Part shown: piece by piece, positions 39 to 26,254 of the stretch
Position numbering within the stretch: position 1 is the stretch's first letter
How the letters are laid out: each line of letters opens with the position of its first letter
The notes under the pieces: generated by a model
Databases searched by the model: none
What the model was told of the DNA's origin: nothing
The model's input: the letters and a program-made list of their open reading frames with translations, nothing else
Position numbers and translations under genes: made by a program
IMG/VR virus record: IMGVR_UViG_3300038425_000058
Span: 1 to 31,853 of that record
Source of the DNA: a virus
Length of the DNA: 31,853 nt
Direction: 5' to 3' (one strand)

Positions 39-65
39 TGGGGCAACCCCGGAGCGGACGTAGCT

Positions 66-195
66 TGGCTTCGCAAGGCTCGGTTGGGCTTGGCACGGCG
101 CGGTTAGGTAGGGAATGGCGTGGTCTGGCGTGGCAGGGATTCCCTGGCTCGGTAGGGTCCGGCCCGGCGGGGCAGGGTGTGGCTCGGCGCGGATT
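66..195 (+). repeat. GG-pentamer periodic repeat tract
   Basis: A GG dinucleotide recurs almost every 5 bases from about 66 to 138 (NGGNN register). After one broken unit at 141-145 it resumes one base out of phase (GGNNN) from 146 to 192. The bases between vary, so this is a periodic pattern, not an exact tandem repeat. Five is not a multiple of three, so the pattern is not driven by protein coding. The 64-codon ORF over it is a by-product with low-complexity Gly/Arg/Ala/Gln content. The tract ends about 20 bases before the RAMP-like gene at 216. Confidence 0.8.
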
Positions 196-215
196 TCAAG
201 GTAAGGTGAAACAGC

Positions 216-7550: not shown

Positions 7551-8113
7551 GGGCCTTCATGGGCGCACTCGAGGACAAATGGACGGAGATTGACCGGCAG
7601 ATCGCAGAGAAGGAGAAGGCCACCCAGGGGGCCCGGGAGGAGGAGGTCCATCAGTGGGAGGTAGTGATCAATATCCTCACGGATCGGGCTACCCACCCGG
7701 GGCGCAATGTAGAATACATTGACCTGGATACCGGGGAGCCCGTCTCGGGTCCCATTAAGGGCGCGATCCCTATGCCGAAGAGATTCAATCAGGCCACCCA
7801 GAACGCGATCACAACCCTCCTCACCCGGAAGAACGAGCTGGTTCAGGCCATCTTGGATCTCCCCAATAACCTCACACCTGACATAGATCCGGGGCTCCTC
7901 ACGGTTCGCATGAATGACATGAAGGGAGAGCTCGGCACTATCGCCCGAAAGCTCTACGTGCTTCTTATCGCGGATCCGCTGCTTACCGAGGACTGGCTCC
8001 TGGAGAACCCCGATAAGTGGTGCCCCCAGGACCTCGCCGTCCTCATCGCCCGATACGAAGCCCGCAATCTGGAGGTGGTGGAGCGGATCCGTTCCTTTCG
8101 CCGCAAGCGATGA
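7547..8113 (+). CDS. tail assembly chaperone (G-type)
   Basis: A 188-residue, charged helical protein between tube and tape measure, where lambda-like viruses encode chaperones G and GT. Start is GTG 7547 (GTGA overlap with the tube stop) or ATG 7559. Helical segments (LEDKWTEIDRQIAEKEKAT, FNQATQNAITTLL) and a very basic end (SFRRKR) are seen. The reading frame that continues beyond its stop in the +1 register encodes a coherent extension, so a frameshifted GT form is likely. Confidence 0.75.
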   Translation: MRAFMGALEDKWTEIDRQIAEKEKATQGAREEEVHQWEVVINILTDRATHPGRNVEYIDLDTGEPVSGPIKGAIPMPKRFNQATQNAITTLLTRKNELVQAILDLPNNLTPDIDPGLLTVRMNDMKGELGTIARKLYVLLIADPLLTEDWLLENPDKWCPQDLAVLIARYEARNLEVVERIRSFRRKR

Positions 8114-14950: not shown

Positions 14951-14977
14951 TTAATGGGGGATGGCTTCCCCCGTTAA
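14951..14977. terminator. strong hairpin at the transposase 3' end
   Basis: An 11-bp stem (TTAATGGGGGA / TCCCCCGTTAA, one G-T pair) with a 5-base loop covers the last codons of the transposase. It may terminate transcription from either side or protect the element from read-through from the fibre operon. No T run follows on the + strand. Confidence 0.5.
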
Positions 14978-16093
14978 CCGTCGTGGGATGGCTGCGTTCT
15001 GGATCAGGGTCATCCACCGGTTCTCGCCTTCCACCGAGATTCCGCAGGCTTCCGCAGGGGTCTTTCCCTTCAGGGCCTCATGCTCCCGGATGAAGTTGTG
15101 GTAAATCTGATACCCTGGAAGGATCGGGGTATCAACCTTCTTCAGTCCCCGCATGACCTTCTCCCGGTCACGGATCTCCCCGTTGATCCTTTCCATCTTG
15201 TTATTGTTCGCCGGGGTGCTGAACTGGATCGCGCTGATGTGCCGTGACTTCGGGGCGGTCACGGTGCCGAACTCCTTTCTAAAAGCATCCTTGTATGCCT
15301 GCAACCCATCGGTGATGAGGATACCCGGTCTCTTCCTGGCGACCTCCTGCCCGGCATGGAGGAGGCCCGCCGCGTCATGGGAATACTTCGTCCCCGCGAC
15401 TTCTTGAGCAATCCAGTATCGGGTCTCGTCGTCCATGAGGGCAAAGAGGTATTTCATATCCCCCCGGATCCTGACATAGAGTTCATCAGCCCTCCAGGTA
15501 TCGCCGAGCTGGGGCTGAAGCTTCTCGATGTATTTTTCCATCAGGGCGGTATATTTCGAGATCCACTTATAGACGGTGACATGGGAGACCGAGACCCCGC
15601 GAAGCTTGAGGGCCTTCGTGACGTTCCGAAGGGAAAGCCCGCTGAAGTAGAGCTGCATCGCAGAGGTAATATCCTGCGGTCCCTTCTTCATGTATTCAAA
15701 CCCGACATTCAAAGTGAAGTGCTGGAGACAGTCCTTGCAGAAAAATACCTGAATATCTCCATAGGCGTTGTATCGGATACCGTCCTTCACGATATTGGAG
15801 GAACCGCAGAGGATACACGCACCCTCGGCGAGTGGAGCGATCCGCACCATTTCAACCTCTTTCCTGATGGCGACGCTGAACTCCACGGCCCAGATATGCT
15901 TGCATTTCGCGCCCCGGGTCACATGATCCGGGCAGGTGCATCTCCACCCGATCTCCGTGTGGGTGACTTCATAGGCCCCGGGGCCGGACTGCGAGCGCAC
16001 CAGATAGAGGTCTTTCGTAATCCGCTTTATCTGCCCCATCTTCTCCGCGATCTCCTTTCCGCGTTCTTCCCTGGTTGTTGTTAGTCTCTGCAT
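14951..16093 (-). CDS. DDE transposase with SWIM and zinc ribbon domains
   Basis: A 380-residue protein. N-terminal SWIM zinc finger CTCPDHVTRGAKCKH (52-66), zinc ribbon with CxxC at 93/96 and 119/122, helix-turn-helix-like 'SLRNVTKALKLRGVSVSHVTVYKWI' (about 154-178), then a DDE domain. Asp203 in WRADELY, Asp262 in ITDGLQAY and Glu301 in NNNKMERINGEIRDR are the likely catalytic acids, followed by MRGLK. Length and motifs appear intact. Transposases with SWIM and this DDE layout are, from memory, frequent in methanogenic archaea. A TATA-like AGTAATATAC (about 16121-16130) lies about 30 bases before the start on the - strand. Gene orientation opposes the viral operons. Confidence 0.85.
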   Translation of the reverse strand: MQRLTTTREERGKEIAEKMGQIKRITKDLYLVRSQSGPGAYEVTHTEIGWRCTCPDHVTRGAKCKHIWAVEFSVAIRKEVEMVRIAPLAEGACILCGSSNIVKDGIRYNAYGDIQVFFCKDCLQHFTLNVGFEYMKKGPQDITSAMQLYFSGLSLRNVTKALKLRGVSVSHVTVYKWISKYTALMEKYIEKLQPQLGDTWRADELYVRIRGDMKYLFALMDDETRYWIAQEVAGTKYSHDAAGLLHAGQEVARKRPGILITDGLQAYKDAFRKEFGTVTAPKSRHISAIQFSTPANNNKMERINGEIRDREKVMRGLKKVDTPILPGYQIYHNFIREHEALKGKTPAEACGISVEGENRWMTLIQNAAIPRRLTGEAIPH

Positions 16094-16139
16094 CTTTACC
16101 GCCTGTAACTTACCTGTTCTGTATATTACTTAATAGGTT

Positions 16140-16208
16140 ACTTGAGCATATATACCTTACGCCTGACACCGCAAACGGTATATACCTTAAGAGTGATACA
16201 TAACCCAC
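16140..16208 (+). promoter_or_regulatory. promoter of the ParB operon with direct repeats
   Basis: TATATACCTTA occurs at 16149-16159 and again at 16179-16189, exactly 30 bases apart. The second copy is a good TATA box 28 bases before ATG 16209, giving a leaderless start. The first may be an operator or second TATA box. The motif differs from the TATAGTATAG promoters, so this operon may be separately controlled. Confidence 0.6.
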
Positions 16209-16361
16209 ATGGCAACGAAGGTGAAACTCCAGGTTGAAGGGAACCGCTGCGAGCGTTGCGGCCACGAGTGGACTCCCATTGGAAAGGAGATGCCCACGGT
16301 CTGTCCGAAGTGTAAAAGCCCGTATTGGAACCGGCCCCGGAGGACAGAGAACCATGAATGA
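16209..16361 (+). CDS. small zinc ribbon protein
   Basis: A 50-residue basic protein with one zinc ribbon: CERCG (14-18) and CPKCK (33-37), about 19 residues apart. ATG 16209 has no ribosome binding site and sits where a leaderless transcript would begin. It is the first gene of the ParB operon and overlaps the next gene by 8 bases. Such viral zinc ribbons often bind nucleic acids or transcription factors; the exact role is unknown. Confidence 0.75.
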   Translation: MATKVKLQVEGNRCERCGHEWTPIGKEMPTVCPKCKSPYWNRPRRTENHE

Positions 16362-16596: not shown

Positions 16597-17024
16597 TGGA
16601 CGAAGTTCAAAAACTCCAGGGCCTCGCAGATTTGATTGACGAAATGAGGAGGCTCAAAACCCCATTCAATGCGGTAATTATACCATCAGGAGTACTCGGG
16701 AATGTTCTCGATGTTGCCCGTCTTAAACTTGTGGATAACGCAACGGAATGGGAGGCGTGTTATGAAACTGGAACTTACGATCTCTGGAAGGATGGGGATT
16801 TAGTCGAATATGACCTCTCGCGTTCACAAGCAGCTCAACGCCTGATTGATGAATACCGGAAAGCGAAAATGGAGAAAATGGTTCGGCGAATGAAGGATGA
16901 GATCAAAGAACTTCTGGTTATTCCCAGCGAAGTTTACCGGGCTCTCCCTGAGCTGGAACGCCTCGCTGCCGATGCTTTACAGCAAACGGGGAAAGTAATC
17001 ATCCAGGAGGAAAAACATGAGTGA
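16596..17024 (+). CDS. hypothetical protein
   Basis: A 142-residue alpha/beta protein. N-terminal part (LADLIDEMRRLKTPFNAVIIPSG) suggests helix and strand. The C-terminal half has two helices (RSQAAQRLIDEYRKAKMEKMVRRMKDEI and LPELERLAADALQQ). Not recognised. It overlaps the ParB-like start by 8 bases, implying translational coupling; the AGGAGG near its end serves the next gene. Confidence 0.7.
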   Translation: MDEVQKLQGLADLIDEMRRLKTPFNAVIIPSGVLGNVLDVARLKLVDNATEWEACYETGTYDLWKDGDLVEYDLSRSQAAQRLIDEYRKAKMEKMVRRMKDEIKELLVIPSEVYRALPELERLAADALQQTGKVIIQEEKHE

Positions 17025-18354
17025 CAAGATCGCGTTATCGAAGATCACCCCGGCCCCATTCCAGTCAAGGAAGGAATTTAACCCCGTAAAGCTGCAAGAA
17101 CTCGCCGATTCCATGAGGGAACAGGGCCTCATCGAACCAATCATCGTGAGGCCCTTGGATGGCGGGTATCAGCTCATCGCAGGGGAGCGCCGGTTCCGTG
17201 CCGCTAAGCTCCTCGGATGGAAGGATATCCGGGCCGAAATCTGCCCGATGGATGACATGGAGGCCGAGGAGAAATCCGTGGTGGAGAACGTCCACCGTGG
17301 GGATCTCAAGGGTCAGGAGCTGGAGGATATTGTTTATGACCTCTGGCAAAAGGGAAAAGAGCTGAAGAGATATGGGGGGGCCTCCGGGGAGCAATCAATG
17401 GAAGTCCTCTCAAAACGGCTCGGATGGGAAAGGGGACGAGCAAGCGAGATTGTTCGCGCGAAGGAGGCGCGTGAGCGGCTTGGATTTAAAGTCGTCGGAG
17501 ACGAGAAGAAGAAGGTTACTACCGACGATCTGATTAAAACCAGGGGGATTGAGAACGACGCAGATCGCAAGACACTTATTGAAAAGAAGGTCGATGGCTC
17601 AATCAAACAGGGAGACCTTGAGCAATATGCCCAGACGGTGAAGGAATCCCCCAAGGCCGTGAAGGAGGCTGTCCTTGACAAACCCAAGACCTTCACCCCG
17701 AAGGTCGCCGAAGGTCTCTCGAAGCTGCCCGAGGAATCCCAGGCAGGGACCATCGCCGCGATCAAGAAGGGAAAGATGGACGAGGAAAAGGCCGTCCAGC
17801 TCACCAAGACAGTGAAGGAATCCCCCAAGGCCGTGAAAGAGGCCGTCCTGGAGAACCCGGAACGCTTCACCCCGAAGGTCGCCGAAGAGCTATCAAAGCT
17901 CCCCACCGAGGAGGGGCAGAAGTCCACCATCGACGCCATCAAAAAGCATCGGCTCGAAGAGGGGGAGGCGGTCGAGCTCACAAAGATGATGGACAAGCAG
18001 ATGGCCTATGCCAAGGAACACGAGGTCGAGCTGGAGGAGAAGGCCCGCGAGTTCGCCGCCCTCCTGAAAGAATGGGAGAGGGAACGGGCAAAGGGGCAAT
18101 CGACGCCCGGGAGGATTCGGGTGGGTCATGCCTTCCGTAACATCATGGCCCACATGGGGATCGTCCACGAGATCGAAAGCTCATCCGGGAGCTGCACCTG
18201 CCCGCATTGCGGGAAGGAAGCATCGCAATATCTCCGGTGGACTTGCTGTGATGAGGGAAAGAATGAAACGCTCGCCCAGGCATTCGAGGATGCCAAGCGA
18301 CAGCATGAGGCTATCGTGAAAGAGGAAACCAAGAAAACCGTGAGGTGGAAGTGA
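17017..18354 (+). CDS. ParB-like protein with internal repeats and C-terminal zinc finger
   Basis: A 445-residue protein. Residues 1-100 form a ParB/Spo0J N-terminal domain: ITPAPFQSRKEF, 'ELADSMREQGLIEPIIVRP' and the box GERRFRA (56-62), which in ParB proteins contacts CTP, then ENVHRGDL. A helix-turn-helix-like region follows (about 125-148). Residues 207-264 and 265-322 are tandem 58-residue repeats (TVKESPKAVKEAVL ... FTPKVAE.LSKLP). A charged helix (about 330-358) and Cys-rich end (CTCPHC at 393-398, CC at 410-411) follow. No ParA is present. Roles could be DNA segregation, replication or regulation. Binding sites were not located. Confidence 0.85.
   Translation: MSDKIALSKITPAPFQSRKEFNPVKLQELADSMREQGLIEPIIVRPLDGGYQLIAGERRFRAAKLLGWKDIRAEICPMDDMEAEEKSVVENVHRGDLKGQELEDIVYDLWQKGKELKRYGGASGEQSMEVLSKRLGWERGRASEIVRAKEARERLGFKVVGDEKKKVTTDDLIKTRGIENDADRKTLIEKKVDGSIKQGDLEQYAQTVKESPKAVKEAVLDKPKTFTPKVAEGLSKLPEESQAGTIAAIKKGKMDEEKAVQLTKTVKESPKAVKEAVLENPERFTPKVAEELSKLPTEEGQKSTIDAIKKHRLEEGEAVELTKMMDKQMAYAKEHEVELEEKAREFAALLKEWERERAKGQSTPGRIRVGHAFRNIMAHMGIVHEIESSSGSCTCPHCGKEASQYLRWTCCDEGKNETLAQAFEDAKRQHEAIVKEETKKTVRWK
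17635..17982 (+). repeat. two tandem 174-base repeats in the ParB-like gene
   Basis: The copies (17635-17808, 17809-17982) encode the 58-residue repeats. Long stretches are nearly identical in DNA (GTGAAGGAATCCCCCAAGG is shared exactly), so the duplication looks recent or kept similar by gene conversion. Confidence 0.8.
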
Positions 18355-21969: not shown

Positions 21970-22753
21970 AGCATTTTCCTGTGTAATCGGGCGAGATAAG
22001 AAGGTTATTTGGAAGATGGGGGTCGATTCCCATGAAGACCTCCTAAAGATCGCCGGCTACAAGGATGATACCAGGGATCCGGAGATAATTGAGTTTGCCC
22101 GAATCGAGAGCGCCCCCAAGAACGGCTCCTATCTTGAGCCCGATAAATGGGTCTTCAAGATTGATATGGACATCACGCCGAAGTGGTGGACGCTGGCGCA
22201 TAAACGGGCCTGCGAGAGGGCGCATAAGGCATGGCTGAAGAAACTGGAAAAGATCCTTGTGAGAAAGGCCATTGTGAATCCCCTTACCCTTCAGCCACCG
22301 GAGATCACCCCGGAGATCCTCCAGCTCCTGAAAGAATGGGACTCGGTCAGGGACTCGGTCTGGGACTCGGTCAAGGACTCGGCCTGGGCCGCGGTCGGGG
22401 ACTCGGTCTGGGACTCGGCCTGGGACTCGGTCAGGGACTCGGTCTGGGACTCGGTCAAGGACTCGGTCTGGGACTCGGTCGGGGACTCGGCCTGGGACTC
22501 GGTCAGGGACTCGGCCTGGGACTCGGTCAGGGACTCGGCCTGGGCCTATACCGGGTCGTTCTTTGTCCTTCCGAGAAAGGCATGGAAATACACCGAGAAG
22601 ATTCCGGGAAAGGAGTATCCCTTCAAACCCGCCGTCACCCTCTGGGAACTCGGGTTAGTTGCCTCCTTTGACGGGAAGATCTGGAGGCTACACGGTGGCA
22701 AGGATGCGAAGATCCTCTGGGTGGGGACTGCGAAAGACCTGGAGGTGACCTGA
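21962..22753 (+). CDS. phage protein with 17 DSVW-type tetrapeptide repeats
   Basis: 263 residues from ATG 21962, chosen for the AAGGAGGGA 7 bases upstream and the MCKAFSC opening typical, as I recall, of a phage hypothetical family (MCK.FS...V...D.HedL). The N-terminal domain (1-120) contains WVFKIDMDITPKWWT. Residues about 127-194 are 17 tetrapeptides of the form [DA]-[SA]-[VA]-[WRKG]. A C-terminal domain (about 200-263) has strand-rich ILWVGTAKDLEV. Regular four-residue repeats suggest a beta-solenoid or a flat repetitive surface. Function unknown. Confidence 0.75.
   Translation: MCKAFSCVIGRDKKVIWKMGVDSHEDLLKIAGYKDDTRDPEIIEFARIESAPKNGSYLEPDKWVFKIDMDITPKWWTLAHKRACERAHKAWLKKLEKILVRKAIVNPLTLQPPEITPEILQLLKEWDSVRDSVWDSVKDSAWAAVGDSVWDSAWDSVRDSVWDSVKDSVWDSVGDSAWDSVRDSAWDSVRDSAWAYTGSFFVLPRKAWKYTEKIPGKEYPFKPAVTLWELGLVASFDGKIWRLHGGKDAKILWVGTAKDLEVT
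22340..22543 (+). repeat. 17 tandem 12-base repeats
   Basis: Units of GACTCGGTCTGG with variation mainly in the last three bases (TGG, AGG, AAG, GGG) and GTC/GCC in the middle. They encode the DSVW/DSVR repeats. Perfect 12-base phasing keeps the frame on expansion or contraction. No unique spacers, so not a CRISPR array. Confidence 0.9.
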
Positions 22754-25277: not shown

Positions 25278-25447
25278 AGGTAGACTCCCCTTTCCGGTCG
25301 ATTCACGTTGATCAGATCGCCCGCATAAAGGCTCACGGTCAGAAGATTTGGGAGAAGACCACGCCATTCCCTGACGAGACCGCGAAGGACATGAAGGACG
25401 AGGTGCTCGCCTTCCTTGCTACCATCCAGGAGGTTGAGACGCGATGA
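25265..25447 (+). CDS. small hypothetical protein
   Basis: 60 residues from ATG 25265, nested over the end of the previous gene. Charged, helical (IHVDQIARIKAHGQKIWEK, AKDMKDEVLAFLATIQEV). Ends with a GATGA overlap. Coding supported by the overlaps; family unknown. Confidence 0.55.
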   Translation: MEKVEVDSPFRSIHVDQIARIKAHGQKIWEKTTPFPDETAKDMKDEVLAFLATIQEVETR

Positions 25448-25680
25448 AGGTTGCACCGCTCGGGGCCGAGGGAACCAAGAAGGTATCCCTCGGGATGGTC
25501 CTGAAGGAGCTCAACCAGCGGGACGGGATCCCAGAATACTCCAAGGAGGCACGGAGACGGATGGGCAGGAACTCGATGGGGCGGCCATCCCGGGAGACCC
25601 GCCTCAAGACCAGCGCAACCCTCCGAGCTTGGCATGGAAGAGGCAAGGGCGGTCCGCGCCCAGGGGAGGGGCGGTCATGA
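25444..25680 (+). CDS. small basic hypothetical protein
   Basis: 78 residues, strongly basic (SKEARRRMGRNSMGRPSRETRLK), possibly a helix-turn-helix or nucleic-acid-binding tail (VSLGMVLKELNQRDGIPEYSKEA). Stop overlaps the next ATG. Not recognised. Confidence 0.6.
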   Translation: MKVAPLGAEGTKKVSLGMVLKELNQRDGIPEYSKEARRRMGRNSMGRPSRETRLKTSATLRAWHGRGKGGPRPGEGRS

Positions 25681-25904
25681 CTCAAAATCGAATTATGGAA
25701 TCCATATTACTTTATTTCACGCCTAAAGGGAATTACGGAATCCGTGATCCTTTGGTAGTAGTAGTAGCTAGGAGAAATTACGGATACTATAATACTATAA
25801 TTCCCTCGGGTGTTTTCCGGAAACTTGGAAACTCGGTTTCCATAATTCTGTCACCGGCGATAAATACGGATACCGTATTACCGCAATTCGGGGGGGCCTC
25901 ATGA
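25677..25904 (+). CDS. AT-rich small ORF over a palindrome cluster; coding doubtful
   Basis: 75 residues in an ATGA-to-ATGA position, so it fits the operon. But its DNA is unlike its neighbours: 78 of the 200 bases at 25681-25880 are G or C (39%), against clearly higher content around it, and it holds five dyads. The protein ends NTIIPSGVFRKLGNSVSIILSP, reminiscent of an AbrB/MazE-type swapped-hairpin segment ('IP..vr.kLg....v'). It may be a transferred small gene or simply an open frame across a regulatory element. Confidence 0.45.
   Translation: MTQNRIMESILLYFTPKGNYGIRDPLVVVVARRNYGYYNTIIPSGVFRKLGNSVSIILSPAINTDTVLPQFGGAS
25694..25879. repeat. cluster of five dyad-symmetric sites in an AT-rich island
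   Basis: Perfect palindromes or inverted repeats: TATGGAATCCATA (25694-25706), ACGGAATCCGT (25735-25745), TTTCCGGAAA (25814-25823), TGGAAAC-TCG-GTTTCCA (25826-25842), AATACGG-ATA-CCGTATT (25863-25879). A half-site TTACGGATA lies at 25778-25786. TACTATAA occurs twice around 25785-25800. Most share a GGA/TCC core. This resembles an operator array, iteron-type origin or recombination site. Confidence 0.7.
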
Positions 25905-26254
25905 GGCGCGGCCCAAAGCAGAAATACCGGGAGCGGGAGCGGCTTATCCTCTCCATCGAGAAGGTTGAGCTGGAGATCCTGGAGCTCGGAAATGTCCCCT
26001 ACCAGAAGATCCTCCAGAATACCCTGAAGGAGATCGTCCGGGGGCAGGTTGAAAAGGGGCATATCACCGAGAAGAAACTTAAGGAACTCTCCGAGGTGGA
26101 GGAGATCGCGGCCCAACGCTGCGAGTTAAACTGCGAAGAGCACCGAAGCCGGGCCCGGGAATACCAGTTGATAACCTCCCTTATTCAGAAGAAGCATGCC
26201 CGGCCGGTCGCCCTGGAGAGACCCCTCGTAGACTCAAAGGAGGCGAGTGGATGA
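25901..26254 (+). CDS. hypothetical helical protein
   Basis: 117 residues, start in a CATGA overlap with the AT-rich ORF. Highly charged helices (RERERLILSIEKVELEILELG, EKKLKELSEVEEIAAQRCEL). A coiled-coil protein of unknown role. Overlaps the next gene by 4 bases. Confidence 0.65.
   Translation: MRRGPKQKYRERERLILSIEKVELEILELGNVPYQKILQNTLKEIVRGQVEKGHITEKKLKELSEVEEIAAQRCELNCEEHRSRAREYQLITSLIQKKHARPVALERPLVDSKEASG

Follow-up and report, generated by a model that had tools for sequence, protein, structure and literature searches.

A dyad-rich AT island in the operon of a circular virus: probably a short ORFan gene, less likely a protein-binding array

The window analysed here, a stretch of 31,853 nucleotides covering the whole of IMG/VR virus record IMGVR_UViG_3300038425_000058, contains an AT-rich island that fills the gap from the TGA of a 78-aa gene to the ATG of a 117-aa gene. 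Because of its two ATGA overlaps, its open frame and the change in composition at its edges, the island looks like an operon gene and not like a spacer. We lean towards reading it as an AT-rich ORFan cassette in a coupled operon, with largely incidental dyads. The dyad cluster itself is suggestive but not secure when viewed genome-wide, because 18-20% of shuffled genomes and 6% of codon shuffles match it. The features on which the argument turns are the following:

17017..18354, + strand: ParB-like protein (ParB_N domain), the sole candidate centromere-binding protein seen in the genome
25444..25680, + strand: upstream operon gene, 78 aa, unknown
25677..25904, + strand: ORF P0001, 75 codons, with ATGA overlaps at the upstream stop (25677-25680) and the downstream start (25901-25904)
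25681..25887, no strand: AT-rich island, its edges those of the ORF
25694..25706, no strand: dyad 1, TATGGAATCCATA, copy 1 of TAYGGAWWCCRTA
25734..25746, no strand: dyad 2, (T)ACGGAATCCGT(G), copy 2, with ACGGAATCCGT itself at 25735-25745
25779..25791, no strand: half-site, copy 3, TACGGATACTATA, which falls short of a full dyad
25814..25823, no strand: dyad TTTCCGGAAA
25826..25842, no strand: dyad TGGAAAC-TCG-GTTTCCA (TGGAAACTCGGTTTCCA), its right arm running on into a reversed copy, GTTTCCATAATT, at 25836-25847
25863..25879, no strand: dyad AATACGG-ATA-CCGTATT (AATACGGATACCGTATT), copy 5
25901..26254, + strand: downstream operon gene, 117 aa, unknown

An open frame between two operon genes

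The G+C content of 25694-25879 is 0.392, whereas the window averages 0.592 (SD 0.049), and the 186-base stretch with the lowest G+C in the window starts at 25680, which bears out the 39% originally reported for the patch. In all, the AT-rich patch covers about 220 bases, and composition steps at both edges of the ORF. The frame stays open across all of its ~75 codons, as do only 0.9% of shuffled islands, and its ATGA start and stop overlaps resemble those of the neighbouring genes. The suggestion that the ORF spanning the dyads may be incidental is thus doubtful, although its codon statistics do differ from those of the genes around it. Codon-position dependence is not significant (chi-square p 0.35, where 99% of the virus's real 75-codon stretches fall below 0.15), and G+C by codon position is 0.43/0.42/0.38 versus roughly 0.6/0.45/0.76. 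There is a weak coding trend, with first codon positions enriched in G and second ones in T (p 0.06-0.07), and the amino-acid make-up is nearer to that of the virus's proteins than 96% of shuffles.

No homologue of the ORF was found in Pfam, PHROGs, NCBIfam, phages, viral_contigs (the identical strain excepted) or 232 genomes of the host's order, nor by HMM libraries, tblastn or comparison with solved structures; leucine-rich and designed-repeat matches were rejected as low-complexity noise. AlphaFold on the single sequence gave an uninformative model (pLDDT 44). A young or foreign ORFan fits best with a frame that has almost no codon-position structure, no homologue and no confident fold. The same reading has points against it, namely the lack of a homologue, the weak codon-position signal and a dyad density that is locally unusual.

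How would such a gene work? We picture an early-operon gene, short, AT-rich and foreign in composition, that was presumably acquired recently and came to sit between two genes of a circular archaeal virus whose translation would be coupled. By stopping and restarting at ATGA, ribosomes would move from the gene at 25444 into the 75-codon frame and, at the second ATGA, on to the gene at 25901. If expressed in this way, the frame would yield a small hydrophobic ORFan protein rich in strands, plausibly with an accessory role, and the dyads would owe most to base composition and to a handful of codon strings that recur, with no function needed.

Dyads judged against the patch and against the genome

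The five dyads of the original prediction are all present and exact: 25694-25879 holds five perfect inverted repeats with arms of 5-7 bases, three to five of which have a TAYGGAWWCCRTA-like core in common, together with a half-site, TTACGGATA, at 25778. A sixth dyad, GCCTCATGAGGC, lies at the island's 3' junction. Copies of AATTAYGGAWWC, four forward (25691, 25731, 25776 and, with one mismatch, 25862) and one reversed (25836-25847), make up most of the array. A direct-repeat family of five members is seen, with spacings of 40, 45, 45 and 41. Allowing at most one mismatch, TAYGGAWWCCRTA is exclusive to the island within the 39.4 kb circle described below. A codon string, AAT TAC GGA (read as NYG), is common to copies 2 and 3. 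The repeat cannot be put down to the protein alone, since the reading phase of copies 1 and 5 is a different one and one copy is reversed.

Measured locally, the density of dyads is unusual, with p 0.0005-0.005 against dinucleotide shuffles of the island and p 0.005-0.015 against synonymous-codon shuffles of the ORF, which keep the protein. The shared-site statistic for five similar sites was reached by 2 of 1000 dinucleotide shuffles versus 61 of 1000 synonymous ones. The first reading, however, had singled out the most striking place in 32 kb. Under a genome-wide null, in which the genome was shuffled in blocks and the best window taken from each shuffle, a window scoring at least 184, the score of the five dyads, appears in 18-20% of shuffled genomes, and at least three similar dyads within 220 bases in 15%; the score that includes the junction dyad is reached by 4.5%. 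The excess over random sequence therefore stands locally, whereas across the genome the cluster is not clearly significant, and the case is weaker than first claimed. The second densest dyad cluster of the genome (12002-12222, score 174) lies within a tail-region gene, and a related virus has comparable clusters elsewhere, with other motifs. Should the ordinary reading hold, the island adds another to the AT-rich ORFans of viral operons and warns against judging dyads by the local patch instead of the whole genome.

The virus, its host and its relatives

Two other contigs overlap both ends of the window at 99.8-99.9% identity, and the three IMG/VR contigs (the window, L017 and L007) overlap end to end to give a circle of ~39.4 kb. 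Since they close this circle, the record belongs to a genome that is circular or circularly permuted, as opposed to a linear Mu-like prophage whose ends are fixed; its capsid protein resembles Mu gpT. A DDE transposase gene at 14951-16093, with a SWIM-like zinc motif and 69% identity to Methanoregula copies, is probably an insertion sequence in the virus. Because its nearest relatives are in Methanoregula, Methanoperedens and other archaea, the host would be archaeal, probably a methanogen.

Searches for further carriers of the island through both flanking genes, the capsid protein, the methyltransferase and the ParB-like protein returned the identical strain only, and the island is absent from the related virus G238. 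A DNA pattern for the iteron pair, run across viral_contigs, matched only the sister strain and AT-rich or NYG-repeat sequences judged to be chance. In a related virus, an AT-rich, non-coding-looking patch lies upstream of the shared methyltransferase (L068 2985-3150, about 16115-16280 in G238) and carries AATACTACTACTACTAAGTACGGATC and TTTAAATATTT; the island, too, has a run of GTAGTAGTAGTAG near TACGGATAC.

Several other elements of this virus deserve mention. A G-rich patch between two genes (window 50-200; about 7644-7815 in the reverse complement of L017; 6308-6480 in L007) is built of degenerate GGCTNGG/GGTNNGG units, contains a GGGATTCCC dyad and shows substitutions and insertions between strains that are otherwise 99.8% identical. 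It may be a more interesting non-coding element of the virus than the island. At 22337-22544, a 12-base unit (TGGGACTCGGTC) is repeated 17 times in tandem and encodes WDSV repeats within the 21941-22753 gene, and a 176-base insertion (L007 4024-4199) is present in one strain and missing from the other.

Alternative readings and known systems

Could the repeats instead be a place where a protein binds? A tentative second reading, which we hold to be possible but distinctly less probable than the ORFan cassette, is an array that would act as the sopC centromere of the F plasmid does, or as a silencer: some five repeats 40-45 bases apart, of which several contain a 13-base dyad, to which the viral ParB-like protein would bind. 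That the ORF would then be kept open solely to preserve translational coupling seems to us equally tentative. The five-copy family with its spacings of 40-45 bases and the restriction of its sites to the island speak for such an array, as do the circular genome, the virus's own ParB_N protein (E 3e-25, Spo0J-like over residues 5-101) and the scant codon-position signal of the ORF. In the related virus G238 the ParB-like gene and the dyads are both absent, a single case that proves nothing. Against it, the island lies 8.7 kb from the ParB-like gene, and the circle yielded no ParA-like protein with a Walker A motif: none of its frames above 120 aa carries GK[ST] or KGGxG[KR]. Of the five sites, two are weak as dyads, leaving three good dyads and two degenerate copies (three similar dyads arise in 15% of shuffled genomes), and significance across the genome is marginal. 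The operator array of the original prediction may still apply, with at most weak statistical support (18-20% genome-wide, 4.5% with the junction dyad). The ParB-like protein has internal repeats, and close relatives of it are absent from viral_contigs and from genomes of the host's order. In its most specific form, a sopC-like centromere or ParB-nucleation array within an open frame of a circular archaeal virus that encodes a Mu-type capsid protein and a ParB-like protein but no recognisable ParA, the idea appears rather unlikely. If the ParB-like protein did bind the array, partition or silencing in a methanogen virus would have a site that can be tested; a limited literature search found no such case.

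An origin by insertion or decay we regard as unlikely. Here a small MITE-like element, or a decayed repeat gene, would have entered at an ATGA junction and duplicated TCATGA; its imperfect ends would be CGAATTATGG and CCGCAATTCG, which lie 8 bases inside each TCATGA copy. TCATGA does occur at both edges, with CGAATT equidistant from both, but coupling alone predicts ATGA at both edges, and a second copy is found neither in the virus itself nor in phages, plasmids or 232 genomes of the host's class. A search with island DNA of host-class genomes, plasmids and phages gave one 28-base match, inside a gene, which we judged to be chance. The reading also draws on the in-phase repeats NYGIHI, NYGIRD, NYGYYN, KLGNSV and KYGYRI, with a period near 15 codons and shifted frames; the read-through repeat, however, matches no family, and the frame-shifted read-through was rejected as a repeat protein for want of a match.

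A structured RNA element in the operon mRNA, whose hairpins would pace or process the transcript, is very improbable. The island RNA folds better than its shuffles, of which 3 in 200 do as well (z -2.45), and has two stems of 7 pairs each with 3-base loops, but several stems have just 5 pairs and no Rfam match was found; scans with Rfam and for tRNA and sigma-70 promoters gave nothing of use. Least probable of all is that replication starts here, with host Orc1/Cdc6 recognising the site and the AT-rich patch opening: AT-richness with repeats recalls the phage lambda origin inside gene O (PMC3349717), yet the best island match to the Methanomicrobia ORB box TCCASTKGAAAYRAWGGGGT (consensus from PMC4164010), which is present near cdc6 in Methanoregula genomes, has 7 mismatches of 20, no replication initiator is recognisable among the proteins scanned, and the GC-skew extrema, a check proposed at the outset, lie elsewhere (minimum 16.2 kb, maximum 33.7 kb), so the origin first suggested is not supported.

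Finally, we would like to set the island beside systems that it resembles. With the short AT-rich ORFan genes of viral early operons it shares small size, lack of a homologue, ATGA coupling and foreign composition, and it differs from them in its unusually weak codon-position signal and its dyad cluster. The F-plasmid sopC (parS) site consists of 43-bp repeats with a 16-bp inverted repeat in each (PMC6238139, PMC9178275), and the likeness lies in direct repeats of ~43 bases, several with an inverted repeat, and in a replicon-encoded ParB-family protein; sopC has twelve copies, whereas the island has five degenerate ones, inside an ORF, without ParA and far from the ParB-like gene. The phage lambda origin likewise combines iteron-like repeats and an AT-rich stretch inside a reading frame, but the island has no recognised initiator gene, separate melting region or skew signal, and its frame encodes a 75-aa ORFan.
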